This document shows positions 48,750 to 63,974 of a stretch of DNA of 64,000 nt, piece by piece; the stretch's first letter is position 1, and each line of letters opens with the position of its first letter. The notes beneath the pieces were generated by a model, which had not been told where the DNA came from, ran no database searches, and was given only the letters and a program-made list of their open reading frames with translations. The stretch is from Clostridia bacterium (GTDB taxonomy: Bacteria; Bacillota; Clostridia; Christensenellales; Aristaeellaceae): the NCBI GenBank assembly GCA_017936765.1, contig JAGBEX010000010.1:1-64000 (forward strand). The letters are read 5' to 3'. The position numbers were made by a program, and so were the translations under genes.

Positions 48750-49523
48750 TTATTGAATCATCCGGTCATACCAGATCATATCGCATCCGTTTTGAAGCTC
48801 GCCGGGGAAGAACGCTGTCTGGACAAAACCGCATTTGGCAAGCGAATCGCGCATCCACTGCTGCCGGGGGTGCATATAGGGATAACGCAGCTTGGAGGCA
48901 TACCCGCCAAAGAGTTTCGCGGCGTGATCTGTCAGCAGGCGCAGCTGCTCACACGCATCCTGCGCGTCAAGCTTCTCATGAAACACTGCTGTGGAGATGC
49001 TCAAAACCGTATTCCCGGATATATGGTTGGGCTGACTGATTTCCAGCAGGGCAAGAAGCTCCCCCTCCTGCTCGCTGAGGAGGTAGTGGGTTTGCCGCTC
49101 ATAAAGCCTCGTATACACGCCGTAAGGACCATTGTAGCCCTCGCCCACTATGGTTGCGCAACTCTGTCCCTTTTGCGCATAGGCCGTCAGGAAGCGGGAT
49201 ATGTGCATATAGTCGCCCTGCTGAGCCAGACGGCAGCCTGTCCCTGCAGGTTGGGGGATTTCCTCCAGCCTGGCCAGGCCGCAGGCGTGGAGCTTGTACA
49301 GGATTTCTTCGAAATATCTGCGCAGCTTTGCAGGGGTTGTGTTCACCGCCCCAAGGTCATGCAGGAATTCATCCAGCTCCACCCAGCGGTCGCACACATC
49401 AAAGATATGGCGTCCGGCACGGTTGAAGTGCAGGATCCGGTTGGTTTTGCAAACCATGATCGCCATGGTGCCCTGCTCTTCCTCTCGGGCGAAGAAATCC
49501 TCCCGGTTAATGCGATATCTCAC
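48750..49523 (-). CDS. RRE-GNAT fusion protein, copy 2
   Basis: A 257-residue protein. Residues 1-85 look like a PqqD-type RiPP recognition element that binds leader peptides (YRINREDFFAREEEQGTMAI; NRAGRHIFDVCDRWVELDEF). From about 95 on the pattern is that of a GNAT acyltransferase (LLSEQEGELLALLEIS; LQNGCDMIWYDRMIQ at the end), though the acyl-CoA loop is poorly kept. GTG start overlaps the radical SAM stop (GTGA). It is homologous to 52308-53054. In related RiPP clusters GNATs add fatty acyl groups to Lys or Orn; that role here is inference. Confidence 0.7.
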   Translation of the reverse strand: MRYRINREDFFAREEEQGTMAIMVCKTNRILHFNRAGRHIFDVCDRWVELDEFLHDLGAVNTTPAKLRRYFEEILYKLHACGLARLEEIPQPAGTGCRLAQQGDYMHISRFLTAYAQKGQSCATIVGEGYNGPYGVYTRLYERQTHYLLSEQEGELLALLEISQPNHISGNTVLSISTAVFHEKLDAQDACEQLRLLTDHAAKLFGGYASKLRYPYMHPRQQWMRDSLAKCGFVQTAFFPGELQNGCDMIWYDRMIQ

Positions 49524-50524
49524 GTAGTTCCCTCCAGCAGATCAAGTTGAATGCTTTCCTCTCCGTAGGGCAAAGGATCAAGCAAGTCCCAGTCGTATAC
49601 ATTGTGAATGGCACAGACATAATCGCGCACCTGCGGAACACTGCGCGCGGCCGCAAATGCAGAGCGGAGATTGCCCATAGCACCATCGGCAGTACAATCG
49701 CCCATGAGAATGGGCAGATAGCTGGTCAGTGCCAGCTGGCCGTCAGCGCGAATCTCTAACATGGGTTCCTTTTCGTTTGTCCCCATACGCCCGGGCATAC
49801 CAAGGATCACTTGAAGCGGATCATCCCACTCGATGCGGATCTGATTGCCGTATCGCTCAGACAGCCGCCACAGCTCCCGTCGGAAGCGGAAATAGCCCTC
49901 TTCGTCCAGCATCAGCGGACGGCCCATGCTGCGTCCCCGCCCCGATGGCAGGAAGGGCATGGCTCGGATGATGTCCACCCCCAGCGAAAGGCAGAGCTGC
50001 ACATATTCCTCCAGCGAATCCACATTCAGCCGGTTGGGCAGGATGGCGCACACCACCTGCGCGATGCCCGCTGTTTTCAGCGCACATATGGCCTTTATGG
50101 CACGCTCAAAAGAACCTGCTGTGCCGCGCAGGCTGTCATGCTGCCAGGCATATGCACCGTCCAGGCTCACCTGCACAGCGCGAACCCCGTAGGCTGCAAG
50201 CCTCCTTGCCCAGGCTTCATCCAACGCAAAGCCGTTGGTCACCATGGAAATCTGCGGCACTCGTCCCTGTAAATGCTCCAGCAACAGCAGCAGATCAGGG
50301 CAGCACAAGGGCTCCCCGCCGCACAGGCAGATATTGAAGGGCTTGAGCGACAGCACCGCATCAGCAGCCTGCAGCAACGTCGCTCTGTCCATATCCCGCC
50401 GCAAATTCTCCCCGCTGCCATTATAGCAGTGCAGACAGCGGAGATTGCAGCGGCTGGTGATGTTCAGCGCAACGCTGTCGTAATAGCAGGGTTGCTTTGC
50501 CGCATCAGTCAGTGACATTGGCAT
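49520..50524 (-). CDS. Radical SAM RiPP maturase, copy 2
   Basis: A 334-residue radical SAM enzyme. The cluster motif is CNLRCLHC (C26, C30, C33), followed by LCGGEPLCCPDL, VQVSLDGAYAWQHDSLRG and MPFLPSGRGRSMGR. There is no SPASM Cys cluster at the C-terminus. Its start overlaps the 3' end of the Asn-ladder precursor by 20 bases, and the RRE-GNAT overlaps its stop, so these three are one translational unit. It is the best candidate to modify that precursor, for example by epimerising residues, but the reaction cannot be read from sequence. Confidence 0.85.
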   Translation of the reverse strand: MPMSLTDAAKQPCYYDSVALNITSRCNLRCLHCYNGSGENLRRDMDRATLLQAADAVLSLKPFNICLCGGEPLCCPDLLLLLEHLQGRVPQISMVTNGFALDEAWARRLAAYGVRAVQVSLDGAYAWQHDSLRGTAGSFERAIKAICALKTAGIAQVVCAILPNRLNVDSLEEYVQLCLSLGVDIIRAMPFLPSGRGRSMGRPLMLDEEGYFRFRRELWRLSERYGNQIRIEWDDPLQVILGMPGRMGTNEKEPMLEIRADGQLALTSYLPILMGDCTADGAMGNLRSAFAAARSVPQVRDYVCAIHNVYDWDLLDPLPYGEESIQLDLLEGTT

Positions 50525-50882
50525 TCGTCAGCGCGTTGACATTGGCTGCTGCCATCGCATTGGCTGCAGCCACAGCATTAGCGGCTGCCATGGCGTTGGC
50601 TGCAACGTTCAGGTTTGCACCCGCATTGATATTGGCCACAAAATTCACATTGGCCGCAACAACAACAGGAACAAAGAAGTAACCTGCGCCGTCCTTATCC
50701 TCCAGTTCTTCAGTGGAAAGGCCCTCCAGATCGTCGTCAGAGAGCTCGCTGGCGTCGTAAAGCACAGCCTCTTCCTCCGGCTGCTTCTCATCAGGCTTCT
50801 TTGCAGGTTCGGTTTCGTCCGGCTTGAGAGGCTTCTTGGTTTCGTTCTCATCGGGGCTCGTGATCTTCTTCTCGTCAGACAT
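50505..50882 (-). CDS. Asn-ladder RiPP precursor (polytheonamide-like core)
   Basis: A 125-residue precursor. Residues 1-66 are an acidic Lys/Glu/Pro-rich leader ending LSTEELEDKDGAG, neither Nif11 nor nitrile-hydratase-like. From YFFVPVVV (68 on) the core is Ala/Val/Asn only in character. Asn falls at 78, 84, 90, 96, 102, 108, 114 and 120, an exact six-residue period, with a second partial ladder at 80, 86, 92, 116 and 122. Polytheonamides have the same spacing; there alternating D-residues make a beta-helix and the aligned Asn are N-methylated. The ATG at 50882 has GAGGTGG upstream. A methyltransferase precedes and a radical SAM gene overlaps it. Confidence 0.85.
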   Translation of the reverse strand: MSDEKKITSPDENETKKPLKPDETEPAKKPDEKQPEEEAVLYDASELSDDDLEGLSTEELEDKDGAGYFFVPVVVAANVNFVANINAGANLNVAANAMAAANAVAAANAMAAANVNALTNANVTD

Positions 50883-50900: not shown

Positions 50901-52304
50901 TTATTTGAGCAGACGCTTCAAAGCGCCAATGCGTTCAAGATTCATGCAGGTATCCAGCACCCGGCTCAGGAAGGCCGGATAGCCCTCCTTTTGATAACGG
51001 GGCTTGTCGGCGTACTGGCTCCACAGTGCTTCGGCAGTCTCGCGGATGGATTTGCCAGATTGCATTTGGGCCATAATATCCGCCTTTTCTCTGCTGAGAA
51101 TACCCATATGGCGTTTCCCACGCCAGATGCTTTGCACATTCGGGTTGGGGCCCGTGGTGACCGACGGGTCAAGGCTTGCCCGATCCTCCATATCCCACTG
51201 GTTATACTGGCGGATGCGGCACAGCTGCCCATCTCCCTTGCCGCTGGCATGGATGCGGTAGAGAATGCTGTACAGATACGTCGCACCAAGATCGCGGTAA
51301 ATTTCTTCCATCTGCCGGCGCAGCGCAGCCTTGTCCAGCTCCTCGTTGAACAGCGCGGTCAAATCCACCATTTTGCAGATCTGATGGCTTGCCTCCAGCC
51401 GGCCCGGAAGGAGCTGACTGGTCTGCCAGCCATGCTCACGGCCAAGACGCTCGACGTCCGCATCGAAGAACACACCATTGCTGTCGCCCAGGCATTCGCA
51501 GAAGATGATCGCCTCGCCGCCGGGATTGAGGTACTTCGGCAGACCCTCCACAATGCGGCGCAGCACCTGCAGACCATCCCGTCCGCCAGTGCCGCAGATG
51601 GGATAGGTCACATCTTCTGTCATGGGGATAAAGGGCGGATTCGCGTAGATGCAGTCGAAGGTTTCTCCCTCTTTAAGAACATTATACAGGTTTCCCTCGC
51701 GTAATTCAACCCTGTCTTCGCAGTTGTTGAGGAGAATGTTGAAGCGGGTCACCGGCACAGCCTTGGGATTCAGCTCCACCGACACTACCTTGCGGGCGAA
51801 CCGGGCGCAGAGCAGGCCCTGTATGCTGCTGCCACTGCACAGATCCAGCGCTGTATCGCCCCGCTGGTAGCCAATGTTTTCCGCCAGACGGTAGCTGTCG
51901 CTGCCCAGGTAGACGTCAATATTGCGGTTGGTGCAGCTGGGGAACCAGGGATTTGTCTCCACCACCAGCAGCAGCCCCTGATAGGGGATCACCACATAGT
52001 TGTTGGTCTCAATGTTGTCGCCTTCCCGGTGCCACAGGCCAGCTTCGATCAGTTGGTCTATCGCCTCCTGCCCGATCTCATCAGCCAGTTCGCTCTCCAC
52101 CACGCCAGCGCCCAGATGCAGAATGCGGAAGGCCGCCTTGCAGGGATTCTCCATGTGACTCAGGCAGCGCTCCATGGACGCATAATCAAACCACGGATCA
52201 TGGAAGCCATATAGCCCGCGAAATGCCTTAATCGTAAAGGCATAGTCGATTTTTTCGCATACATCCCGAAGGATTTTTGTGTATTTCTTTTCAGCAAGGA
52301 GCAT
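50901..52304 (-). CDS. NPPF-type methyltransferase of RiPP locus
   Basis: A 467-residue SAM-dependent methyltransferase. Residues 1-130 form an N-terminal helical/winged region. Motif I is LDLCSGSSIQG (153-163) and the catalytic motif IV is NPPF (222-225), the form used by enzymes that methylate amide or amino nitrogens such as PrmC on glutamine. The C-terminal about 130 residues are helical. It is 18 bases upstream of the Asn-ladder precursor. N-methylation of Asn side chains, as PoyE does in polytheonamide, is a strong inference. GGAGG precedes the ATG. Confidence 0.8.
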   Translation of the reverse strand: MLLAEKKYTKILRDVCEKIDYAFTIKAFRGLYGFHDPWFDYASMERCLSHMENPCKAAFRILHLGAGVVESELADEIGQEAIDQLIEAGLWHREGDNIETNNYVVIPYQGLLLVVETNPWFPSCTNRNIDVYLGSDSYRLAENIGYQRGDTALDLCSGSSIQGLLCARFARKVVSVELNPKAVPVTRFNILLNNCEDRVELREGNLYNVLKEGETFDCIYANPPFIPMTEDVTYPICGTGGRDGLQVLRRIVEGLPKYLNPGGEAIIFCECLGDSNGVFFDADVERLGREHGWQTSQLLPGRLEASHQICKMVDLTALFNEELDKAALRRQMEEIYRDLGATYLYSILYRIHASGKGDGQLCRIRQYNQWDMEDRASLDPSVTTGPNPNVQSIWRGKRHMGILSREKADIMAQMQSGKSIRETAEALWSQYADKPRYQKEGYPAFLSRVLDTCMNLERIGALKRLLK

Positions 52305-52307
52305 CGC

Positions 52308-53054
52308 TTATCCTCCAATTACCCGGTCGTAGATCGTCAGGCCGATGCCGCCCAGCAGCTCCCGTTCCAGCGTGCAGGTCTTTTGGAAGCCCTGCGCCGC
52401 CAATGCGGAGAGCATCCCATCCTGACAGGCATCGAAATACTGGAATCGCAGCCGGGCGTAATCCTGACGGAAGGCAGCCTCCACCTCGGTCAGCAGAGCC
52501 TCCAGCATGGCTGTCTGTTCTCCTTCGGGAAGTTCCGCTGCATAGATCACGTGCTGGAGATACACCACACTGGAAACATCTCCAGCCGCCGGAGGACGTA
52601 CGATCATCAATGCCACGATCTGTCCATCCCGCTCGGCCAGAAAATTGTATTCATGATTGTTAAATTGCCGCGCGCGGACGCTGTCCTCATTGTGCATCTC
52701 CGGGGAATACGCAAGACTTTGGTTGGGCCCCTTTCCCGCATGGCGCTCCAGGAATGCGCTGATGCGGCGGTAGTCGCGCTCGCCAGCCACACGGCAGGGC
52801 TTGACCGGCTTTTCTTCCTCGATCTGCGCAATATCGAAACATTCCAGCAGCATCAGTCCATCGCGAAGATCGCGCCGCTGCTGCTCGGAAACGCCACGGG
52901 TCACTTCCTCAAAGTCGATCCATTCGTCTGTTCTGTCCAGCAATGCCCCAGCGCTTTCCTTCAGGAACAGTGAGCGAAAGCCAGCCTTCATGGGGATCAC
53001 GCCGCTTTGCGCATCCCGCCGGGTAAAGGCGCTGCTGTTGATCAAGTATCGCAT
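52308..53054 (-). CDS. RRE-GNAT fusion protein, copy 1
   Basis: A 248-residue homologue of 48750-49523. The N-terminal 85 residues are PqqD-like (MRYLINSSAFTRRD; SAGALLDRTDEWIDFEEV) and the C-terminal part GNAT-like (NFLAERDGQIVALMIVRPPA; YAAELPEGEQTAMLEALL). The start at 53054 lies one base after the radical SAM stop, with GGAGG inside that gene. It is three bases from the methyltransferase. It probably binds a leader peptide and may acylate the product. Confidence 0.7.
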   Translation of the reverse strand: MRYLINSSAFTRRDAQSGVIPMKAGFRSLFLKESAGALLDRTDEWIDFEEVTRGVSEQQRRDLRDGLMLLECFDIAQIEEEKPVKPCRVAGERDYRRISAFLERHAGKGPNQSLAYSPEMHNEDSVRARQFNNHEYNFLAERDGQIVALMIVRPPAAGDVSSVVYLQHVIYAAELPEGEQTAMLEALLTEVEAAFRQDYARLRFQYFDACQDGMLSALAAQGFQKTCTLERELLGGIGLTIYDRVIGG

Positions 53055-53055
53055 C

Positions 53056-54069
53056 TTACGCCTCCAGAATATCAATCATGATGGTTTCGCCGCTGTACGG
53101 GGCGGGCTCGAAGGTTTCCAGATCATAGATGTTTCGGATTTGATCGGTATACTGCGTCAGCTGCTCATTACCCCACAGATTTTTGTAGCCGCCATCCCAG
53201 TATTCCCGCAGGGTGCGGCGGGTACAGTTGCCCACCAGCACAGGCAGGTAGGTGCTCAGCGTCAGGTCGGCGTTCGCCTTGATCTCCATGGAATAGGAAT
53301 GCAGACCCAGGCTGGCGTTGAAGGGCATCCGGCGCATATGGTCAATGGGGTCGCCCCACTGGAAGGCGGGCCTGCCCTGATACCTCGCATCCAGCCGCTC
53401 CAGGCTGCGGCAGAATTGGAAATACTGCTTTTCATCCAGCATCAGGTTGCGCCCCACCGAGCGTCCCCGGCCTGAGGGCAGGAAGGGCATCAGGCGAATT
53501 TGATGCACGCCAAGGTCATGGCACAGCTCGGTATATTCCTCCAGGCTCTGCCAGTTCAGCCGGTTGGGCACCATCGACACATCCACCGAGGAGATCCCAG
53601 CAGCGATCAGGTTGCGCACCGCAGCGACAGCCCGGTCAAAGGAGCCCTGCACACCCCGGAAGCTGTCATGCTGCCAGGCGTTGGCGCCATCGATGCTGAT
53701 CTGCGCCAGATCCAGCCCATGCTCGACCAGCCTGCGAGCCATTTCCGACGTCATCAGGAAGCCGTTGCTGACCATACTCAGCTTACCCACATGCGGGCGG
53801 AGGACGTCCATGATGTCGAACAGGTCGGAACAGCAAAGGCTTTCACCGCCGCACATACACACGTTGAAGGGGTGCATCTCGGCAATCTGCCTGGCAATAT
53901 CCAGCCGCTGTTCACGGGGCAGGTCAGGATTGGGCGCCTGATCACCGCTGTTGTTAAAGCAATGGACACACCGCAGATTGCAAAGCTGCGTGGTATCGAA
54001 GGATACCATAATCGGCCCGTGGGTCAGCCGGTAATGGTTGAGATCCACAAAAATTTCGTGCTGCGCCAT
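53056..54069 (-). CDS. Radical SAM RiPP maturase, copy 1
   Basis: A 337-residue radical SAM enzyme homologous to 49520-50524. CNLRCVHC gives C30, C34, C37; then MCGGESLCCSDL, AQISIDGANAWQHDSFRG and MPFLPSGRGRSVGR. No C-terminal SPASM cluster, only scattered Cys. It follows the Cys-free Nif11 peptide and precedes RRE-GNAT copy 1. Substrate could be that peptide or the Asn-ladder precursor. Confidence 0.85.
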   Translation of the reverse strand: MAQHEIFVDLNHYRLTHGPIMVSFDTTQLCNLRCVHCFNNSGDQAPNPDLPREQRLDIARQIAEMHPFNVCMCGGESLCCSDLFDIMDVLRPHVGKLSMVSNGFLMTSEMARRLVEHGLDLAQISIDGANAWQHDSFRGVQGSFDRAVAAVRNLIAAGISSVDVSMVPNRLNWQSLEEYTELCHDLGVHQIRLMPFLPSGRGRSVGRNLMLDEKQYFQFCRSLERLDARYQGRPAFQWGDPIDHMRRMPFNASLGLHSYSMEIKANADLTLSTYLPVLVGNCTRRTLREYWDGGYKNLWGNEQLTQYTDQIRNIYDLETFEPAPYSGETIMIDILEA

Positions 54070-54131: not shown

Positions 54132-54443
54132 TTATGGCTGTCTCGCTTTTCTTCTTTCCTCTTCTGCTTCCGTTGTAGTTATCATCAGTAAAGTCATTAG
54201 TTCATCTAATGACATATTCTCTATTCCTCCGCCCGCAGTTTTCTCCAGCTCCTCATCGGTGAGTTCTGCGCCGTCGATCTGTTTGAAATCGTCTTCCGTG
54301 AGCGTTATCCCCACTGCGGCGGCCAGCGCCGATAGTTGCGCTCTCCGCGCTTCGAAGGGAAGTCTGTTTAAATCCTTCAGTGTTTCCAGCGACTGGTCGT
54401 TCTTAACCGCCGCCTCAAAAAAACGCTTCATTCTTTCTGTCAT
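54132..54443 (-). CDS. Nif11-leader precursor with Cys-free core
   Basis: A 103-residue peptide. The leader is Nif11-like (MTERMKRFFEAAVKND; AALAAAVGITLTEDDFKQ by pattern) and ends ELTDEELEKTAGG, a double-Gly cleavage site. The core after GG is GIENMSLDELMTLLMITT followed by a charged tail; it has no Cys and so differs from the other Nif11 peptides. It sits between the exporter and radical SAM copy 1, its probable modifier. ATG at 54443 has GGAGG nine bases upstream. Confidence 0.8.
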   Translation of the reverse strand: MTERMKRFFEAAVKNDQSLETLKDLNRLPFEARRAQLSALAAAVGITLTEDDFKQIDGAELTDEELEKTAGGGIENMSLDELMTLLMITTTEAEEERRKARQP

Positions 54444-54487
54444 TGCAAACAACCTCCATATATATCATAATATCTCGTCGTCAGCCA

Positions 54488-56647
54488 TTACGAATCCAGC
54501 CTTTGCCGCGCTACCAGATGGGCAAAGCGCCCGTTCAGGGCGATCAGTTCGTTGTAGGTACCGTCCTCCACGATCCGGCCGCCATCCAGCACCACAATGC
54601 GGCTGCAGTTCTGGATGGTGGAAAGGCGGTGGGCAATGACCACGCGGGTGCAGTTCAGCGCATCCAGCGAGCGCACCGCATGGGCCTGCGCCACATTGTC
54701 CAGCGCGGAGGTGGCTTCGTCCATGAAGATGATGCTTGGACGGCCCACCATCGACCGGGCGATCAGCAGCCGCTGGCGCTGTCCGCCGGAGATACCCGCG
54801 CCGTTTTCGCCCAGCATGGTGTTAAGCTTCATGGGCATACGGCGCACATCCTCGGCCAGGCCTGCCTTTTCAAGGGCTTCCCATGCCTCGTCTTCGGTCA
54901 TGTCGGGCTTTACGATAGAGAGATTGGTGAAAATGGAGCCCTGCATCAGCTGGCCGTTTTGCAGCACCGTGCCGATTCTGCGGCGCAAACCGCGCAGGTT
55001 CAGGGATTTCATGTCGTGGTCGTCATAATAGATTGCGCCCTGCTCCGGCTTTTCAAAGCCGAGCATCAGCCGCATCAGGGTGGACTTGCCGCATCCCGTT
55101 GCTCCCACGATGGCGAGGTATTCGCCGGGGGCAATGTCCAGCGTCACATCATCCAGCAGCATGGGGCCGTCCTTGTTATAGCGGAAGCTGACGTGGCTCA
55201 CGCTGATCTTACCGGTCAGCTGTTCGGGGATCAGCTTGCCCGGTTCGATCTCCGGCTCCGTTTCCAAAATGGGCTTCATCATGTTCAGCATCGGGCCGAA
55301 CTCCGTCAGGGTGGACACAATGCCGATCAGCGCCGTGAATGCGCCGGAAACCAGACCATAGGCTGAGCTGAACGCCATGTAGTTGGCCGCTGAAACACCG
55401 CTGGAAGCCGCCGCATAGTAGATCACCACAAGGCCGATCAGGCTGATGAACCCCATCAGCGCCTGCCGGTAAAGGAGGATTCTCGGCTGCCGGTAGGTCA
55501 GGTCAGCTACGTCCTTGTATTCGTTGGCCCACTTGGCAAAAATGCGCTTCTCCGCGCCGGAAAGGCGGATCTTCTGGATGCCATTGATGATGGTCAGCAT
55601 CCTGCCGGAAAGGCTGGCCTGCTTCTTCATGCGCACATTGGTGCGCTTCACGCCGATGACCACGCAGGCCAGGGACAGCGCGGTTTTCAGTACCAGCACG
55701 ATCACCGCAGGCACCGTCAGCGCCGGGGCAAAGGCAGAGATCTGCGCAATGTAGATCAGCGAAAACAGGCCTGTCAGGCCGGAGGAAAACACCGCCTTCA
55801 CCGTGGCGGCCGTCAGATTGTCAATGGAGCTCAGCTGGGCAGCCACCTCGCCGGAGGCGTGCTGCTTGAAGAAGCCCGCAGGCATGGACATGACTCTCGC
55901 CATTGCCGCCGATTGCAGCGACGCGCCTGCCCGGATATTCACCACGCCCACCGCCAGCGTCCGTAGCACATTCACCAGATGGGTGGAGGTGACGGAGAAC
56001 ACCAGCAGGAACAGGATGGGCAGCACCAGATTCAGCTGTCCTGAGGGGATCAGCCCGGAAAACACCAGCTGCGTCATGGCAGGAAGCGTCATCGCCAGCA
56101 CGCTGGCCAGCGCCGTTGCGCCGATGAGCTGGATGTAATCCCATGCCGTCAGAGATTTGAGCATATAGCGATACAGATCGCGTAACGTGAGTTTCCCGGC
56201 AGGCAGGGGCAGGTAGAAATACTGTGCCTCTGCCTCCAGATTCTCCGCTGTCTGACGGTTGACACGCACGCACTTGCCTGCGTTTTTGTCGTAGTATTCA
56301 TAGTGGTTCCGCCGGGGCAGGATGGCAACGGTTTGTCCGTCGGTCGTCCGTCCCAGATAAGGGCCGATGGCATCGCGGTACCACTCGCCCTCCAGAAACA
56401 CCGTCCGGCAGGAAATGTTCAGCGTTTCGATGACGTAGTCCACCGGGTTCACGCCCTCCGGGATCTCCGCCGTGCGGTGATAGAACGCCAGGATCTCGCT
56501 GACCGCCTCCGCAGTCTGCGTGCGCTCGGATTGCGCCGTCCGCAGCCCGGCCTTGCCCGTGACGGTGGAGGCAAGCTCACGGTAGGCCGCATCCAGCATC
56601 GCATCGTCAAGCTGGGCGCGCTGGATGCTCTTTTCGTTGATATTCAT
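54488..56647 (-). CDS. NHLM-type export ABC transporter, second subunit
   Basis: A 719-residue permease-ATPase. An N-terminal soluble domain (1-170) without peptidase motifs is followed by six membrane segments, then Walker A GATGCGKS, signature ISGGQRQRLLIARSM, Walker B IIFMDEATSALD and the final His of IAHRLSTI. This matches the peptidase-less partner of the NHLM bacteriocin export set. The start at 56647 has AAGGAGG. It should dimerise with the C39-bearing subunit encoded just upstream. Confidence 0.9.
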   Translation of the reverse strand: MNINEKSIQRAQLDDAMLDAAYRELASTVTGKAGLRTAQSERTQTAEAVSEILAFYHRTAEIPEGVNPVDYVIETLNISCRTVFLEGEWYRDAIGPYLGRTTDGQTVAILPRRNHYEYYDKNAGKCVRVNRQTAENLEAEAQYFYLPLPAGKLTLRDLYRYMLKSLTAWDYIQLIGATALASVLAMTLPAMTQLVFSGLIPSGQLNLVLPILFLLVFSVTSTHLVNVLRTLAVGVVNIRAGASLQSAAMARVMSMPAGFFKQHASGEVAAQLSSIDNLTAATVKAVFSSGLTGLFSLIYIAQISAFAPALTVPAVIVLVLKTALSLACVVIGVKRTNVRMKKQASLSGRMLTIINGIQKIRLSGAEKRIFAKWANEYKDVADLTYRQPRILLYRQALMGFISLIGLVVIYYAAASSGVSAANYMAFSSAYGLVSGAFTALIGIVSTLTEFGPMLNMMKPILETEPEIEPGKLIPEQLTGKISVSHVSFRYNKDGPMLLDDVTLDIAPGEYLAIVGATGCGKSTLMRLMLGFEKPEQGAIYYDDHDMKSLNLRGLRRRIGTVLQNGQLMQGSIFTNLSIVKPDMTEDEAWEALEKAGLAEDVRRMPMKLNTMLGENGAGISGGQRQRLLIARSMVGRPSIIFMDEATSALDNVAQAHAVRSLDALNCTRVVIAHRLSTIQNCSRIVVLDGGRIVEDGTYNELIALNGRFAHLVARQRLDS

Positions 56648-56663
56648 CCGTTGTGCCTCCTTC

Positions 56664-58829
56664 TTACGATGCGCTGACCAGGGCTGCATAATCGCCGTTC
56701 AGCGCCAGCAGCTCGTCATGGGTGCCGCGCTCGGTGACGACGCCGTTCTTCAGCACAAGAATCTCATCTGCGTCCCGGATGGTAGACAGCCGGTGCGCCA
56801 CCAGCAGCATGGTCATGCCTCTGGCTTTGATGGCGTCCATCACCAGCGCCTCCGTCTGAGCATCCAGGGCGGAGGTAGCCTCATCCAGAATAAGGATGGA
56901 CGGATTTCCCGCCAGCGCCCGGGCAATCTCCAGCTGCTGGCGCTGTCCGCCGGAGAAGTTGCTGCCACCCTCGGCGATGCGTGCATCATAGCCGCCCTCG
57001 TGCTTGAGGATGGCCTCATGCACCTGCGCGTCGCGGGCCGCACGGATCATGTCCGCGTCGGTGATGGTGCCGTCTGCAAAGCGGAAATTGTCCTTCACGG
57101 TGCCGGAGAACAGGAAGATGTCCTGATCCACCACCGCCACGGAGGAGGTGAACGCCGCCCGGTCATAGGCGGACATGGGCTTGCCGTCAAAGAGAATCTC
57201 GCCCTCCCAAGGCTGATACAGCCCCGCCACCAGCCTCGCGATGGTGGATTTGCCGCAGCCAGAAGAACCCACCAGCGCCACCTTGCGGCCGGGGGTAAGC
57301 TCCAGCGAGAAGCCCTTCAAAACCGGCGCGGCCTGCCTGGAATAACCGAAGGTCACATTACGGATGCTGACCTTCCCCGTCATGGGAGCGGTGATCTTCT
57401 CGTCATCGCCCGCAGCAAAGACCACATCCTCCTCGTAATTGGTCACGTCTTCAATACGCTCCATACCGGAACGCATCTCCGTCATTTCCTGTCCAGCGGC
57501 GATCATCTGCGACGCCGGGGTCATGAAGGATTGCAGCAGGCTCTGCAGTGCCAGCAGCATACCGGTGGTCAGCTCGCCGTCAATGATCAGCAGCGCGCCC
57601 AGCGCCACCAGCACCACATTGGCGACGTTCAGCAGCAAACCGGGAATGGTACCCAGATAGGTGTTGATCTTTGCAATTTTCGCCTGCCCTGCCATCACGG
57701 CGGCCTGCATACCCGTCCACTGGGCAAACACGCCTTCCTCTGCGCCACTGGCCTTGATGGTCTCCATCACATTCAGGATGCCCGCCGTGGAGCCGGACAG
57801 CACGCCGCTGTCACGGGCAATGACCCTCGTGATCTCCACCCGCCTGCGGGAGATATACTGCGCCACGAACAGGTCGAGCACCAGCGCCGACACGCCAATG
57901 AGCGTCAGCACCGGGCTGATGGAGAGCATCATAATCAGGTACACCGCCATGGTGATCAACCCCACGCCCACAGGCGCGAGGGTGTTCATGAGGGTGCTTG
58001 CAACGGCAGCGTTATCCTGCTGACGGCCTGCAATGTCACCTGCCATTCGCTGGGAGAAAAACTGCATGGGCAGATGCAGCACATGAATCAGATACGAGCA
58101 GTTGGCCGACACAGCAAACCGCCCCTGCACGTAATTCTGATAGGAGGCCGTCACCGCCAGCAGCAGGAACTGCAGCACCGCCATGCCGATGAGGATCACC
58201 AGCAGCGGCATGAGCCAGGCAGTGTTCGAACCGGTGAGGATCTTATCCACAAAGCTGGAAGACAGCGCAGGCTGGGCAATGCCGAAAACCGCCGCAGCCA
58301 CCCCTGACAGCGACAGGAACGCCAATGCACCGCCTGCGCCCTTGAGCCGCTGCTTCACAAAGGGCCACACGCTGGCGGGCCGTCCGCTGGGCTCGAAATG
58401 CTCGCCGGGGACGATCTCCAGAGCGATGCCGCTGTATTGCTTTTCAAATTTGTCCATCGGCACAACCACCGCACCGCTGGCAGGGTCGTTGATGTACGCG
58501 CCCTTTTTGCCAAAGCCGGTCAACACCACGAAATGGCAGCTGTTCCAGAACAGAATGCAGGGCAGGGTGATCTTCGTTTGCAGGCTGTCCACGCCGTAGC
58601 GGAAGCCCTTGCCCTCCATGCCGAAGCTGCGCGCACCCCGGATGATGCTCATCGCGTTCACGCCATCGCGGGAAACGCCCAGCTCCGTGCGCACCCTGGG
58701 CAGGGGCAGCCACTTGCCGTAATACGCCAAGATCATGCTCAGGCTGGCAGCGCCGCATTCCAGCGCTTCCATCTGCATGACCACCGGCACCATTTTCGGG
58801 GCAAAGCGCCCCGCCTTCGTTTTCTTCAT
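56664..58829 (-). CDS. NHLM-type ABC transporter with C39 peptidase
   Basis: A 721-residue exporter. Residues 1-130 are a C39 peptidase with Cys25 in ALECGAASLSMILAYYG, His99 in CHFVVLTGF and Asp115 in NDPASG; it cuts leaders after double Gly. Six membrane segments and an ATPase follow (GSSGCGKST, FSGGQRQQLEIARAL, ILILDEATSALD). It should process and export the Nif11 peptides, all of which end their leaders in GG. The Asn-ladder leader ends in GAG, so cutting there is uncertain. GAGGTGG precedes the ATG. Confidence 0.93.
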   Translation of the reverse strand: MKKTKAGRFAPKMVPVVMQMEALECGAASLSMILAYYGKWLPLPRVRTELGVSRDGVNAMSIIRGARSFGMEGKGFRYGVDSLQTKITLPCILFWNSCHFVVLTGFGKKGAYINDPASGAVVVPMDKFEKQYSGIALEIVPGEHFEPSGRPASVWPFVKQRLKGAGGALAFLSLSGVAAAVFGIAQPALSSSFVDKILTGSNTAWLMPLLVILIGMAVLQFLLLAVTASYQNYVQGRFAVSANCSYLIHVLHLPMQFFSQRMAGDIAGRQQDNAAVASTLMNTLAPVGVGLITMAVYLIMMLSISPVLTLIGVSALVLDLFVAQYISRRRVEITRVIARDSGVLSGSTAGILNVMETIKASGAEEGVFAQWTGMQAAVMAGQAKIAKINTYLGTIPGLLLNVANVVLVALGALLIIDGELTTGMLLALQSLLQSFMTPASQMIAAGQEMTEMRSGMERIEDVTNYEEDVVFAAGDDEKITAPMTGKVSIRNVTFGYSRQAAPVLKGFSLELTPGRKVALVGSSGCGKSTIARLVAGLYQPWEGEILFDGKPMSAYDRAAFTSSVAVVDQDIFLFSGTVKDNFRFADGTITDADMIRAARDAQVHEAILKHEGGYDARIAEGGSNFSGGQRQQLEIARALAGNPSILILDEATSALDAQTEALVMDAIKARGMTMLLVAHRLSTIRDADEILVLKNGVVTERGTHDELLALNGDYAALVSAS

Positions 58830-59366: not shown

Positions 59367-59717
59367 TTAGTTGATGGAGTTATCCGAATCGCCGCTGCCG
59401 CCCATCACGCAGAAGCAGCGCTGCTTTCCGTTGTCATGATATCCGGCGCCCGCGGCAACGCAGCCACAGGCCTCACTGTCGTCATCCTTCGTGCCGCCGC
59501 CGGCAGCAACACACAGACACTTCTTACCGCCGGTCACAGCCGCCATTTCCTGATCGTTCAGGATGTCCTCCGGCTGCCCAAAGTCTGCCTCGATCAATTC
59601 AATGCCCAGCTCCTTCGCCAGGGCGATCAGCTCAGCCTTCTCCAGCTTGCCAGCCTTCACCGCCAGCCTCTTGTCCTCGGATACCTTTGCCAGGAAAGTC
59701 TTCATGCTTTCAGTCAT
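59367..59717 (-). CDS. Nif11 CxC-repeat precursor 1
   Basis: A 116-residue precursor. A Nif11 leader (TESMKTFLAKVSEDKRLAVK; ELIALAKELGIELIEADF) ends VTGG. The core has three C-x-C-x3-G-x-G units, CLCVAAGGG, CGCVAAGAG and CFCVMGGSG, parted by acidic linkers. Six Cys in three pairs. ATG at 59717 with AGGAGAAA ahead. It is the last of five peptide genes before the exporter. Confidence 0.88.
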   Translation of the reverse strand: MTESMKTFLAKVSEDKRLAVKAGKLEKAELIALAKELGIELIEADFGQPEDILNDQEMAAVTGGKKCLCVAAGGGTKDDDSEACGCVAAGAGYHDNGKQRCFCVMGGSGDSDNSIN

Positions 59718-59811
59718 TTTCGTTTCTCCTTTCCTGTCTTGGGGTGTATTGTGTATATAGCGACAGCATGCGCTGTTATCGCCGCTCATGATACTCTTTG
59801 CTGCTGGTATG

Positions 59812-60153
59812 TCAATCGTCGGTACCGCCGCCTCCGGCCATAGCGCACACGCAACGCTCGTGTCTTTCCGTAGATCGACCCCAACCGGCAAACACGCAGG
59901 CACAGGCAGAATCTTTTTCACCATCTGTGCCACCGCCGCCCGCAACGCAGTAGCAATTGCCGCCGCCGGTCACGCTGTTCAGTTCGCCTTCGGAGATATC
60001 GCTCTCCGTCTGTGCAAAGTCCGCCTCGGTCAGGTTAACACCCATCTCCTTCGCCAGGACAATCAGTTCATCTTTCTCCAGCTTGCTGGCCTTTTCTGCC
60101 AGCGCCTTATCCTCGGATACCTTTGCCAGGAAGCACTTCATGTTTTCTGTCAT
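59812..60153 (-). CDS. Nif11 CxC-repeat precursor 2
   Basis: A 113-residue precursor. Nif11 leader (TENMKCFLAKVSEDKALAEK) ends VTGG. Core units are CYCVAGGGG, CACVFAGWG and CVCAMAGGG, ending GTDD. The middle unit carries the CACV form common to most members. GGGAGAG precedes the ATG. The leader has an extra Cys at residue 7, unlike its paralogues. Confidence 0.88.
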   Translation of the reverse strand: MTENMKCFLAKVSEDKALAEKASKLEKDELIVLAKEMGVNLTEADFAQTESDISEGELNSVTGGGNCYCVAGGGGTDGEKDSACACVFAGWGRSTERHERCVCAMAGGGGTDD

Positions 60154-60213
60154 AGGTGATCTCTCCCTTCTTTCGGTCAGCTATACGTTGTTCTTTGGGG
60201 TGCGTTTTGCTGC

Positions 60214-60558
60214 TCAGCCCTTGCCGTAGCCGCCAAGTGCACAAACGCAGCGGTCATAGTCGCCATTCCAGTCCCTGCCCACGCCCGCCAGCACGCAGCC
60301 GCAGGCGGGGTACTGGCCATACGTCGCCTTGGTTCCGCCACCGCCCAGATAACACTGGCACTCGTCACCGCCAGAAATAGTCTTCAGCTCGTTTTCAGCG
60401 ATCTCGCCCTCGGGCTGTACGAAGTCAGCCTCGGTCAACTCAACACCCAGTTCCTTTGCCAGCGCGATCAGCTCGTCCTTCTCCAGCTTGCAGGCCTTTT
60501 CTGCCAGTGCCTTGTCCCCGGATATCTTTGCCAGGAAATTCTTCATGCTTTCAGTCAT
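60214..60558 (-). CDS. Nif11 CxC-repeat precursor 3
   Basis: A 114-residue precursor. Leader TESMKNFLAKISGDKALAEK to ISGG. Core units are CQCYLGGGG, CGCVLAGVG and CVCALGGYG. Start at 60558 with AAGGAGG upstream; a longer frame would translate the spacer. The linker between units one and two is Tyr-rich (KATYGQYPA). Confidence 0.88.
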   Translation of the reverse strand: MTESMKNFLAKISGDKALAEKACKLEKDELIALAKELGVELTEADFVQPEGEIAENELKTISGGDECQCYLGGGGTKATYGQYPACGCVLAGVGRDWNGDYDRCVCALGGYGKG

Positions 60559-60624
60559 ACTGCAGCCTCCTTGTTTTGATGGCTGACCATTACACATGTT
60601 TCCGCCGCACGGAAACACATGCAA

Positions 60625-61032
60625 TCAGATATCATCATCTGTGCCCACGCCGACCAGCGGACAGATGCATTTACGCCCTCCGCGGTAGCCCTGACCGTAA
60701 CCCACGCAAGCGCATACATCGCCATTTTCGTCACGTTGCCCACCGCCGCCAGCTGCACAGAAGCAGTCCTGGATGCCATTGTTGCCGGAGCAATTGTTGA
60801 AGTCAGCCCACGCCTGCTCTTGCTGCGTGCTGGTAGTTCCGCCGTGAATGACCGTCAGCTCATCCTCAGAGAGAGAGGCCTCCGGCTGTGCAAAGTCCGC
60901 CTCGGTCAGTTCGATGCCAATCTCTTTTGCCGCCACGATCAAATCATCGGCCTTCTCTAACTTGCCAATTTTTTCCGCCAGTGCCTTGTCCCCGGATACC
61001 TTTGCGAGGAAGTTTTTCATATTCGCAGTCAT
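60625..61032 (-). CDS. Nif11 CxC-repeat precursor 4, with insertion
   Basis: A 135-residue precursor. Leader TANMKNFLAKVSGDKALAEK ends IHGG. Unlike its paralogues about 22 residues (TTSTQQEQAWADFNNCSGNN) lie between GG and the first unit, adding a seventh Cys. Units are CFCAAGGGG, CACVGYGQG and CICPLVGVG. Start at 61032 with AGGAGG. Confidence 0.86.
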   Translation of the reverse strand: MTANMKNFLAKVSGDKALAEKIGKLEKADDLIVAAKEIGIELTEADFAQPEASLSEDELTVIHGGTTSTQQEQAWADFNNCSGNNGIQDCFCAAGGGGQRDENGDVCACVGYGQGYRGGRKCICPLVGVGTDDDI

Positions 61033-61064
61033 TGTAAAAGCCTCCTTATTCATTGCAGTAAACC

Positions 61065-61445
61065 TCAAATGAGCTCATCTGGCATAACATCGATCACACC
61101 CTCGCCGCCAAGAGCGCAGAAACAGGTAAAATCGTCTTTGCTTCCGTCGCCGCCCTGACCATAGGCCACACAAGCGCAGCCGTAGACGTCATCCCGGCCA
61201 TTCTTTCCGCCGCCGCCACCAGCCAGCACGCAGAAGCAGCCGCCGCTCTTTCCGCCGGAAACAACGTTCAGCTCTTCTTCGGAGAGCTCACTGTTTTCGG
61301 GTTCGATGTCCGCCAGCGTCAGCTCCACGCCGATCTCCTTTGCCAGCGCTATGATCTCGCCGTACTCCTTCGCCGCCTTCAGCCGTTCGATCAGCTGAGC
61401 GTCTGCCGAGACTTTTGCCAGAAACGCTTTCAGGTTCTCACTCAT
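61065..61445 (-). CDS. Nif11 CxC-repeat precursor 5
   Basis: A 126-residue precursor. The leader is the most divergent (SENLKAFLAKVSADAQLIER) and ends VSGG. Units are CFCVLAGGG, CACVAYGQG and CFCALGGEG, then a hydrophobic/acidic tail VIDVMPDELI not seen in the others. It lies 12 bases after the SPASM radical SAM gene, with AAGGAGG before its ATG. Confidence 0.88.
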   Translation of the reverse strand: MSENLKAFLAKVSADAQLIERLKAAKEYGEIIALAKEIGVELTLADIEPENSELSEEELNVVSGGKSGGCFCVLAGGGGGKNGRDDVYGCACVAYGQGGDGSKDDFTCFCALGGEGVIDVMPDELI

Positions 61446-61457
61446 GCTTTTGCCTCC

Positions 61458-62870
61458 TTAATTCGACGCCGCTTCCGTTTTTTCCTGCGGGAGGATATTT
61501 TTCATCAGCTCCGCAATTTTCTCCGTCCAGCCACCCTTGAAGATGCCGCAGATAGCCATATCCGGGGCGAGGATATCCGTGGGCGAAGTCTCCAGCGCGC
61601 TGGCGCGGCAGCCTGCAAGGCACTGCAGGGCGTATTTGCACTTGGCGCATTCCGGATTGTGCGCAAGGACTTCTGTGGCACGGGTATCAATCAGGCGCAT
61701 ATAGCGTGATTCGGTAATGCACTGCGCCAGTCCGATCTCCGGAATCAGCGGGAATTCCTCCTGGATGTCCATGCCGGAGAGCGCCATGCAGGGCAGCGCG
61801 CGTCCCTCTGCGGAGATATACATGACCATCCGGGCATGACCGCACACGCAGGTATTTTCCGGCTTGGAGCAGTGCTTCATGCAGGGGATGTCGTAGCGAT
61901 CCGGCCTGCTGGGCGATGCCGAGAAGAAGCCGCCCAGCTGGAGGGACAGAGGCATCCCATCCTCATAATAATGCGGGATGTAATCAAAGTAGATCTGATA
62001 CAGCTCCTGCATGGAGATGCTTTTGCCGTATCCGCCCTCCTTCCACGCGCCCACGTTGGAGATGGGGTTGGTTTTCAGGCTCCGGCAGCCCAGCTCCGCC
62101 AGGCGGTTGATGGTCTGGCGAAGTAAATGCTTGTTGCCGTTGTGGATGCACATTTCCGCGCCCGTGGGGAAGCCCTTCTCCTTGCAGCGCAGGAACGCAT
62201 CCTCCACGATCTTCCCCGCATTGGGGATGCCACGCAGCCAATCGTGCCAGCCGTCCACGCCGTCGTAGCTCATGTTGAACTCCGGGTGGATGCCCCGCTC
62301 CGCCAATGCGTCCAGCAGCTTGTCAGTGACGAGCTTGCCGTTGGAATAGATGGTAGTGATGCGGATACCGCCCGCCAGCAGAGCATCCACGATTTCCATG
62401 AAATCCTTGCGGACAAGGGGCTCGCCGCCGGTGAGGGAAACCTCCATCACGCCGCAGTCGATCAGCTGCTGCACGATGGACATGATCTGCTCGTGGCTCA
62501 ATTCGCCGTACTTGGCATCCGGCGCGGACATGTAGCAATGCTTGCAGCGGTAGTTGCAGTGCCCGGTGATGGACCAATGAGCTGTGCGGATATAGCGGGC
62601 GGGATAGAGCTTATACTCCTGCTCGGGTGCGATGGCATCGCCGGGTTCGCAGGCGCGGATGATGCCATTCTTCTCGATCTGCGGGATCATGTCGCGGATC
62701 TCCTGCGGGATCAGCGGCAGGGACAGGTCGATCTGTCCGTTGCACAGTTCCAGCGCACGCATTTCCTTTGCGTTGATAAAGATGGGCTGCCGTCTGCGCT
62801 TGTCCACCAACGCATAGGGCAGCTTCTGCCAACCACGCAGGAGGTAATTTTCCTTCAGCTTGTAAAACAT
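61458..62870 (-). CDS. SPASM radical SAM maturase of CxC peptides
   Basis: A 470-residue radical SAM enzyme. Residues 1-90 form a PqqD-like region likely to bind leaders. CNYRCKHC gives C105, C109, C112; SLTGGEPLVRKDF follows. The C-terminal SPASM region has CVCGHARMVMYISAEGRALP with C and then ECAKCKYALQCLAGC, ligands for two auxiliary iron-sulfur clusters. Such enzymes make thioether or carbon-carbon crosslinks in peptides. It stands between three and five CxC precursor genes, so they are its natural substrates; which bond it makes is unknown. Confidence 0.9.
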   Translation of the reverse strand: MFYKLKENYLLRGWQKLPYALVDKRRRQPIFINAKEMRALELCNGQIDLSLPLIPQEIRDMIPQIEKNGIIRACEPGDAIAPEQEYKLYPARYIRTAHWSITGHCNYRCKHCYMSAPDAKYGELSHEQIMSIVQQLIDCGVMEVSLTGGEPLVRKDFMEIVDALLAGGIRITTIYSNGKLVTDKLLDALAERGIHPEFNMSYDGVDGWHDWLRGIPNAGKIVEDAFLRCKEKGFPTGAEMCIHNGNKHLLRQTINRLAELGCRSLKTNPISNVGAWKEGGYGKSISMQELYQIYFDYIPHYYEDGMPLSLQLGGFFSASPSRPDRYDIPCMKHCSKPENTCVCGHARMVMYISAEGRALPCMALSGMDIQEEFPLIPEIGLAQCITESRYMRLIDTRATEVLAHNPECAKCKYALQCLAGCRASALETSPTDILAPDMAICGIFKGGWTEKIAELMKNILPQEKTEAASN

Positions 62871-62920
62871 CTCATCATCCTTTACACTTCACTATATTTG
62901 GGAGTGTATCTGCGATACTC

Positions 62921-63163
62921 TCAGGCCGGGCCTTCGGTGCCATTGCCGTAACCGAAGCAATCACCGCCGCCGGTCACAGCTTCCAGTTCGTCGTCGTTCA
63001 TTTCGCCCGCAGGCTTGGTGAGATCAGCGCCGGTCAGCTCAATGCCCAGCTCCTGGGCCAGGGCAAGCAGGTTTTCCTTGGTCATGGTGCTGGCCATTGC
63101 AGTCAGATCGCTGTTCTGGGAAACAGCCTCCAGGAATTTCTTCATGCTTTCAGTCGTTGTCAA
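62921..63163 (-). pseudogene. Nif11 precursor 6, degenerate
   Basis: An 80-residue relic. The leader is normal (TESMKKFLEAVSQNSDLTAM to VTGG), but the codon matching the ATG of its paralogues is ACG, leaving a TTG two codons upstream or an internal ATG. The core is only GDCFGYGNGTEGPA with one Cys, so both the CxC units and the start have decayed. It lies just upstream of the SPASM gene. Confidence 0.7.
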
Positions 63164-63183
63164 CCATCCGTTCGCGGATCACA

Positions 63184-63540
63184 TCAGTTGTCCGTGCCAA
63201 TCCCGGCCAAGCCGCAGATGCAACGTTCATAGTCGGGATCGGAGAAATCCCCAAACTTAGCGTAACCCGCACCGATAGCCACACAGGCACAGGTCTTGTC
63301 ATTACTGTCTTCGGTGCCACCGCCGCCTATGGCGCAGTAGCATGCCCCGCCGCCGGCAACAGCGTTCAGCTCGTCGTCATTCAGTTCGCCTGCTGGCTTT
63401 TCAAAATCAGCCTCGGTCAGTTCGACGCCCAGCTCCTTGGCCAGGGCAAGCAATTCTTCCTTGGTCAGGTTGTTGATCTTCTTGGTCAGTTCTTCGTTCT
63501 TGGAAACGCTTTCCAGGAATTTCTTCATGTTCTCAGTCAT
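63184..63540 (-). CDS. Nif11 CxC-repeat precursor 7
   Basis: A 118-residue precursor. Leader TENMKKFLESVSKNEELTKK to VAGG. Core units are CYCAIGGGG, CACVAIGAG and CICGLAGIG, with a long Asp/Tyr-rich linker before the third (KFGDFSDPDYER). ATG at 63540 with AAGGA upstream. Confidence 0.88.
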   Translation of the reverse strand: MTENMKKFLESVSKNEELTKKINNLTKEELLALAKELGVELTEADFEKPAGELNDDELNAVAGGGACYCAIGGGGTEDSNDKTCACVAIGAGYAKFGDFSDPDYERCICGLAGIGTDN

Positions 63541-63623
63541 TGTCGTCGATCCTTCCCGAATTTTTTGTCGTTCTTTACGATTCACTATATCTCAGTGTGC
63601 GTCTGTAGCACCGCTGATGGATA

Positions 63624-63974
63624 TCAGTCTGCGTACAATGGCTTGTCGCCACTACCAGCACCGATGCACCAGCAACGGTTTTCGCCATCCCTTGCTGAAC
63701 CGCCGCCAAACGCAACGCAGGCGCAGGCCTTTCCATCTTCATCCGCTTTACCACCGCCGCCTGCAACGCAGAAGCAATCCTTCCAGCCACCGGTTACGGC
63801 TTCCAGCTCGTCCTTTTCCAACTCGCTCTCCTGGGCAAAGTCATCCTCGGTCAGCTCAATGCTCAGCTCCTTGGCCAGGGCAAGCAGGTCTTCCTTGGTC
63901 ATGGTGTTGATCTTCTTGGCCAGTTCTTCGTTCTTGGAAACAGCCTCCAGGAATTTCTTCATGTTCTCAGTCAT
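63624..63974 (-). CDS. Nif11 CxC-repeat precursor 8
   Basis: A 116-residue precursor, the first visible gene of the operon. Leader TENMKKFLEAVSKNEELAKK to VTGG. Core units are CFCVAGGGG, CACVAFGGG and CWCIGAGSG. AAAGG precedes the ATG. The operon promoter must lie beyond the right edge, where more precursor genes may exist. Confidence 0.88.
   Translation of the reverse strand: MTENMKKFLEAVSKNEELAKKINTMTKEDLLALAKELSIELTEDDFAQESELEKDELEAVTGGWKDCFCVAGGGGKADEDGKACACVAFGGGSARDGENRCWCIGAGSGDKPLYAD

Follow-up and report, generated by a model that had tools for sequence, protein, structure and literature searches.

A peptide precursor with a cysteine-free asparagine-ladder core in a gene run with paired radical SAM enzymes and an AerE-like methyltransferase in a Clostridia bacterium

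A 64,000-nucleotide stretch of DNA from a Clostridia bacterium of the Aristaeellaceae (GCA_017936765.1, contig JAGBEX010000010.1, positions 1 to 64,000; here called the window) encodes a peptide of 125 residues with a regular ladder of asparagines in its C-terminal part. We consider it fairly likely that this is the precursor of a modified peptide whose core Asn all stand on alternate residues, most of them spaced by six, matured by the neighbouring enzymes into a D,L-helical, channel-like peptide. The gene and its parts are:

50505 to 50882, minus strand: precursor peptide gene, 125 residues and stop (ATG at 50882, stop ends at 50505).
50685 to 50882, minus strand: leader, residues 1-66, of which 1-39 are variable and 40-66 (ending LSTEELEDKDGA) conserved.
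50508 to 50684, minus strand: core, residues 67-125, GYFFVPV followed by the Asn ladder.
50540 to 50603, minus strand: 18-bp tandem repeat inside the core, one hexad per unit, 3.6 copies, 76% match.

Read from the open reading frame, Asn occurs at residues 13, 78, 80, 84, 86, 90, 92, 96, 102, 108, 114, 116, 120 and 122. The initial annotation had described a ladder of eight rungs with a period of six (78, 84 and so on to 120) and a second partial ladder two residues on, and both are present exactly as claimed, the second one at 80, 86, 92, 116 and 122. When the core (residues 70-125) was shuffled 100,000 times, ladders of at least eight rungs appeared twice, and under uniform placement the 13 Asn of the 59-residue core would share a single parity with p = 4.6e-5. 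A scan of the 64-kb window for same-parity ladders of at least seven Asn in 36 residues returned this gene only. Scans for expression signals gave seven promoter-like sites versus 3.6 in shuffles (standard deviation 2.0) and six terminator-like sites versus 5.6, of which no use was made, and 869 matches to a ribosome-site pattern, which is uninformative for single genes.

As the 18-bp tandem repeat spans part of the core, the middle hexads are not independent of each other, and duplication of entire hexads probably contributed to the growth of the ladder. For this reason the ladder is better supported by its conservation among homologous proteins. A search with the precursor yielded 19 proteins, 18 close ones and a distant one (P0020); P0002 is 99% identical to the window precursor and may stem from the same species. 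Conservation was calculated from 17 of the 19 rows of the resulting alignment (A1), leaving out P0002 as a near copy and P0007 for its differing C-terminal part. In these rows every one of the 13 core Asn columns shows 100% conservation, compared to 81% on average over the remaining 40 core columns, a difference that was reached in 1 of 20,000 permutations; in the leader the mean identity is 0.55 for residues 1-39 and 0.85 for residues 40-66. At the codon level, comparison with the locus of Clostridiales bacterium SIG368 (L003) showed 11 identical, two synonymous and no non-synonymous core Asn codons, while the other core codons were identical in 19, synonymous in 16 and non-synonymous in nine cases. 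The six-residue spacing, the loss of which in homologues the initial annotation had named as a refutation, is thus kept. The Asn ladder is real and under selection. The tandem repeat would also fit an unmodified, low-complexity Ala/Asn protein kept by slippage, an explanation that can hardly hold, since the Asn columns are invariant while synonymous sites change and the gene stands in a run with maturation enzymes in three genomes.

The pattern extends beyond the close homologues. P0020 has a similar core on a different leader, and a search with its core returned P0020 and 12 further proteins; P0020 also passes the NCBIfam cut-off for a CTB family bacteriocin (37.1 versus 32 bits). By eye, the leaders fall into a Lys/Pro/Glu-rich type ending GA, a shorter type with GG followed by Y-E-[DES]-P and one leader of 130 residues. 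The related cores keep G-x-[FIL]-F-[VI]-P followed by Asn hexads, with the exception of P0004, in which S replaces F beside the third residue. Counted from the conserved Gly as residue 1, 434 of 434 Asn occupy even positions in 30 related cores, and no pair of Asn stands at an odd distance over lags of 1 to 17. P0004, which the search expression had missed, obeys the same rule with 13 of 13 Asn. Neither the type of leader nor the core length, which ranges from 54 to 72 residues, breaks this rule; P0007 was dropped from this set, and the rows are mutually related and include the 99% copy P0002, so that they do not count as independent events. Alternating L and D residues would require a single parity of this kind, as expected of a peptide in which every second residue is D-configured.

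Twelve of 31 precursors could be paired with a protein of the window's radical S-adenosylmethionine (SAM) enzyme family by identical size of the longest contig (mean 0.2, maximum 3 in 5,000 trials with sizes jittered by up to 5%), suggesting that in these 12 cases both lie on the same contig. Five of them carry other leaders (P0020, P0021, P0023, P0024 and P0029). The core pattern had no match in viral contigs and a single record in genome contigs of named species, a set from which the window's own or near genomes may be excluded, so exact matches are rare among the genomes of named species. Searches with alignment A1 in 150 genomes of the family gave two matches (the own genome and G076, of another genus), and A2 in 396 genomes of the order and A3 in 391 of the class each found only the own genome. 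A literature search, covering titles and the openings of abstracts, gave no account of this precursor family.

The precursor gene is the fourth of six genes on the minus strand, in the order radical SAM enzyme 1, partner protein 1, methyltransferase, precursor, radical SAM enzyme 2 and partner protein 2, with gaps of 1, 3, 18, -20 and -4 bp:

53056 to 54069, minus strand: radical SAM enzyme 1, paralogue of enzyme 2 (44% identity).
52308 to 53054, minus strand: partner protein 1, paralogue of partner 2 (26% identity).
50901 to 52304, minus strand: methyltransferase, 467 residues, best solved match 7rc2, with conserved Y132, D136 and N222 (NPPF); predicted Asn side-chain N-methylase.
50904 to 51197, minus strand: C-terminal domain of the methyltransferase, residues 370-467, resembling a recognition element for ribosomally made modified peptides (RRE); low-confidence model.
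49520 to 50524, minus strand: radical SAM enzyme 2, with CxC-GGEP and, by eye, no SPASM cysteine motif; predicted epimerase.
48750 to 49523, minus strand: partner protein 2, probably with an RRE-like N-terminal part.

The same run, with by eye the same exporter side, is found in the metagenome-assembled genome of Clostridiales bacterium SIG368. In G076 a radical SAM enzyme, a partner and a methyltransferase (45% identity) stand at the end of one contig, and the start of a second contig holds a precursor, a B12-dependent radical SAM C-methyltransferase (TIGR03975), a radical SAM enzyme and a partner; the two contigs presumably adjoin. TIGR03975, present in G076, has no match in the window genome or in G885.

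The best solved matches of the methyltransferase are 7rc2 to 7rc6 (7rc2: E 6e-24), and all three residues varied in the 7rc2 series are kept. We take 7rc2 to be AerE, the Asn N-methylase of aeronamide, so that by sequence the run would contain the PoyE/AerE-type activity, and N-methylation of Asn side chains is predicted. The window enzyme differs from the 384-residue chain of 7rc2 in its length and its RRE-like C-terminal domain. The fold model of the enzyme has a predicted local distance difference test score (pLDDT) of 41, the tail domain being its sole informative part, and 7rc2 was absent among the best 50 fold matches listed.

Among the best 25 of 82 and 70 NCBIfam matches of the two radical SAM enzymes, none exceeded its cut-off. 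The structure model (pLDDT 92.8) has SkfB, the sporulation killing factor maturase, as the nearest solved protein. An alignment of 110 sequences, comprising 106 of 117 relatives found and four window and locus copies, showed the three cluster cysteines and C66 in all rows and C68 in 107; of the 11 relatives outside the alignment, which were short, long or simply not chosen, nine contain the GGE stretch, with C66 in nine and C68 in eight. C66-x-C68 lies before GGEP, a stretch that binds SAM in such enzymes; the corresponding positions of SkfB, PqqE and BlsE are not occupied by Cys. The substrate of SkfB needs Cys for its thioethers, while the window core has none; among 32 core rows, two (P0027 and P0032) contain Cys. 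C178, selected from five sequences as the conserved cysteine, was present in 98 of 110 rows and was rejected as weaker than C66.

Epimerases and thioether synthases share the abstraction of the C-alpha hydrogen, and the resulting radical then meets a cysteine of the enzyme or one of the substrate (excerpt of PMC8326336). A Cys-free core together with an invariant enzyme Cys makes epimerisation the simplest reading and suggests that the window pair may epimerise core residues, as the epipeptide enzyme YydG (EpeE) does on YydF (EpeX) via an enzyme cysteine; EpeE has two clusters (same excerpt), whereas the window enzymes are nearest to SkfB among solved proteins and by eye carry no SPASM-type motif. 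For PoyD-type enzymes the excerpt describes a single cluster, an RRE at the C-terminus and just one cysteine that is strictly conserved, Cys372, whose place differs from that of C66. No PoyD-family epimerase (TIGR04517) exceeded the cut-off in the window genome, which is 97% complete; the one weak match (14.6 bits) is on another contig. It is unlikely that the Asn are N-methylated and the radical SAM enzymes do not epimerise at all, forming C-C or C-O cross-links or carrying out a SkfB-like C-alpha reaction on a peptide with an all-L fold. Against this stand the lack of Cys in the core, the presence of YydG-like enzymes beside ladders elsewhere (see below) and the strict parity of 434 Asn, which is hard to obtain without a two-residue stereochemical repeat or strand pairing.

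The six partner sequences align with one another and gave nothing significant against Pfam, NCBIfam and solved chains. A GNAT assignment of their second half, made by eye, was unsupported (best E 0.08, to unrelated families). A Collinsella relative of the radical SAM enzymes (E 1.7e-63) is preceded by a protein matching PqqD (Pfam, 35.4 bits, cut-off 23.4), and since a single comparison of this protein with the partner profile gave an alignment at 79% probability and E 1.7e-5, the partners likely contain an RRE-like part.

Upstream of the precursor run lie two subunits of an NHLM-type ATP-binding cassette (ABC) exporter, peptides with Nif11 leaders and another radical SAM enzyme:

54488 to 56689, minus strand: second NHLM-type ABC subunit (TIGR03797, 660 bits, below the cut-off of 709).
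56664 to 58829, minus strand: NHLM-type ABC exporter with C39 peptidase (TIGR03796, 863 bits, cut-off 853; Peptidase_C39, 98.7 bits).

The C39 exporter is probably both leader protease and exporter, and would then export the precursor peptide; judged from the C39-type motif, cleavage would occur after GA66. Between exporter and radical SAM enzyme 1 lies a short Nif11-like peptide (54132-54452, minus strand, 24 bits, cut-off 32); in L019 only about 35 bp separate the two genes. Further upstream, on the minus strand from 59367 to 63974, lie a radical SAM enzyme (61458-62870) and, beside it, seven peptides that each have three CxC repeats (at 59367, 59812, 60214, 60625, 61065, 63184 and 63624). 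All four of the seven that were scanned pass the Nif11 leader cut-off, and these peptides may share the exporter with the Asn-ladder cassette.

The 66-residue leader of the precursor is Lys/Pro/Glu-rich, and neither NHLP nor Nif11 models matched the precursor at E up to 1 (the HMMER filters drop most matches above about 0.1), in line with the initial annotation, which had set it apart from nitrile-hydratase-like leaders. It is, however, not wholly unfamiliar, as had been said there, because its final part ELSDDDLEGLSTEELEDKDGA resembles the ends of the Nif11 leaders in the window (LSxEELxxxxGG/GA by eye); those precursors have Nif11 leaders and Cys-rich cores. An ordinary proteusin with a drifted leader would suit the NHLM exporter and the AerE-like methyltransferase, and a ladder precursor of Rhizobium weakly matches NHLP-related models below cut-off; given the composition of the window leader, the missing NHLP and Nif11 matches and the absence of a PoyD over cut-off, this is highly improbable.

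The proposed maturation into a D,L-helical peptide would proceed as follows. The RRE-like parts of the two partners and of the methyltransferase tail would bind the leader. The two radical SAM enzymes, which may split the core between them, would take a C-alpha hydrogen and return one from the CxC-GGEP cysteine, giving a D-residue at every second position. The Asn side chains, once N-methylated by the methyltransferase, would make hydrogen-bonded ladders along the outer face of a helix with about six residues per turn, and the exporter would cut after GA66 and secrete the 59-residue core. At about 0.76 Angstrom per residue the core would reach a length of about 45 Angstrom, which could suffice to cross a membrane, and its Asn-free GYFFVPVVVAA end would enter first.

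Polytheonamide, a sponge toxin, likewise has a hydrophobic, Asn-free N-terminal part. Its Asn at positions 16, 22 and 28 keep the six-residue spacing, and its chain of N-methyl-Asn follows the outer side of the helix, which corrects the initial annotation, where the side chains were said to line one face of a pore; for aeronamide methylated Asn 25, 31, 37, 41 and 43 are given, with putative localisation (excerpts of PMC11285071). Within these excerpts the published positions of both peptides fit the one-parity rule, and those of aeronamide have a common parity and the six-residue spacing. The analogy drawn to polytheonamide gains independent support from the spacing conserved among the homologues of the precursor, the Asn-methylase (AerE being our own identification of 7rc2), the NHLM exporter and the C-methyltransferase of the sister locus in G076. 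The differences are a precursor with a non-NHLP leader, a genome with no PoyD over cut-off and no TIGR03975, two other radical SAM enzymes with separate partners, a 59-residue core and its GxFFVPV start; leader and radical SAM enzymes differ from those of aeronamide as well. The initial annotation had proposed a separate lineage or a convergent one; "convergent" goes too far for the pathway as a whole, because the methyltransferase looks homologous. By the leader and epimerase tests the precursor is not a proteusin, and we infer a polytheonamide-like action.

A search of plasmids with the methyltransferase gave 21 records, while the radical SAM enzymes had no plasmid match at E 1e-20. Same-parity ladders (at least seven Asn in 36 residues) were present in 4 of 13 plasmid loci examined, namely in Thermus, Collinsella, Klebsiella and Rhizobium Vaf10, which makes four of the seven examined loci with a methyltransferase match above 100 bits and none of the six below:

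L020, 2599-3504: Asn-ladder protein, Thermus aquaticus.
L021, 4033-4758: Asn-ladder protein, Collinsella aerofaciens.
L022, 3981-4715: Asn-ladder protein, Klebsiella sp.
L024, 3103-3909: Asn-ladder protein, Rhizobium leguminosarum.

These ladders sit within proteins of roughly 220 to 300 residues that are unannotated or annotated as hypothetical or DUF5969, with DUF5969 (PF19394) downstream of the ladder in two. In NCBIfam the radical SAM enzymes of the plasmid loci score best against the model of the YydG peptide epimerase, with 74 to 81 bits at a cut-off of 300 that none of them reaches, a further likeness to the epipeptides. In Collinsella a 51-residue peptide (L021, 1487-1642, GPVPVVVNFAAVVDNVVAAV...) lies beside a window-type radical SAM enzyme and the PqqD protein and is possibly another precursor type for this enzyme family.

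The ladder proteins have SdpI-family genes as neighbours in Thermus and Klebsiella, a B12-dependent radical SAM enzyme in Rhizobium and a peptidase-domain exporter in Klebsiella. SdpI confers immunity, and its presence, together with an exporter of the NHLM bacteriocin type in the window, speaks against a D,L-helical peptide that forms no pore and serves as signal, surface fibre or carrier. Such a role would agree with the finding that no dedicated immunity gene was recognised in the window cassette by eye and in general scans, with no special search made; we regard it as rather improbable and prefer the channel-like peptide.

As a summary, channels of the polytheonamide type belong to the ribosomal peptides with the heaviest modification, and the two characterised ones named in the excerpts, polytheonamide and aeronamide, are proteusins. 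Evenly balanced in our judgement is the wider view that Clostridia make D,L-helical channel peptides by a route of their own, with a new paired radical SAM epimerase family (CxC-GGEP donor and own RRE-like partners), Asn-ladder cores on several leaders and an AerE-like methyltransferase that carries its own domain for leader binding. The compact anaerobe cassette with its short leader and small radical SAM enzymes would be a tractable second system and would demonstrate that leader, epimerase and core can be exchanged for one another's counterparts in other pathways, and the parity rule, with Asn on alternate residues only, would provide a simple and testable genome search key for such peptides. 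If true, and together with the Thermus, Klebsiella, Collinsella and Rhizobium loci, the wider view would make the polytheonamide design a widespread membrane-peptide plan and not an oddity of sponge symbionts.
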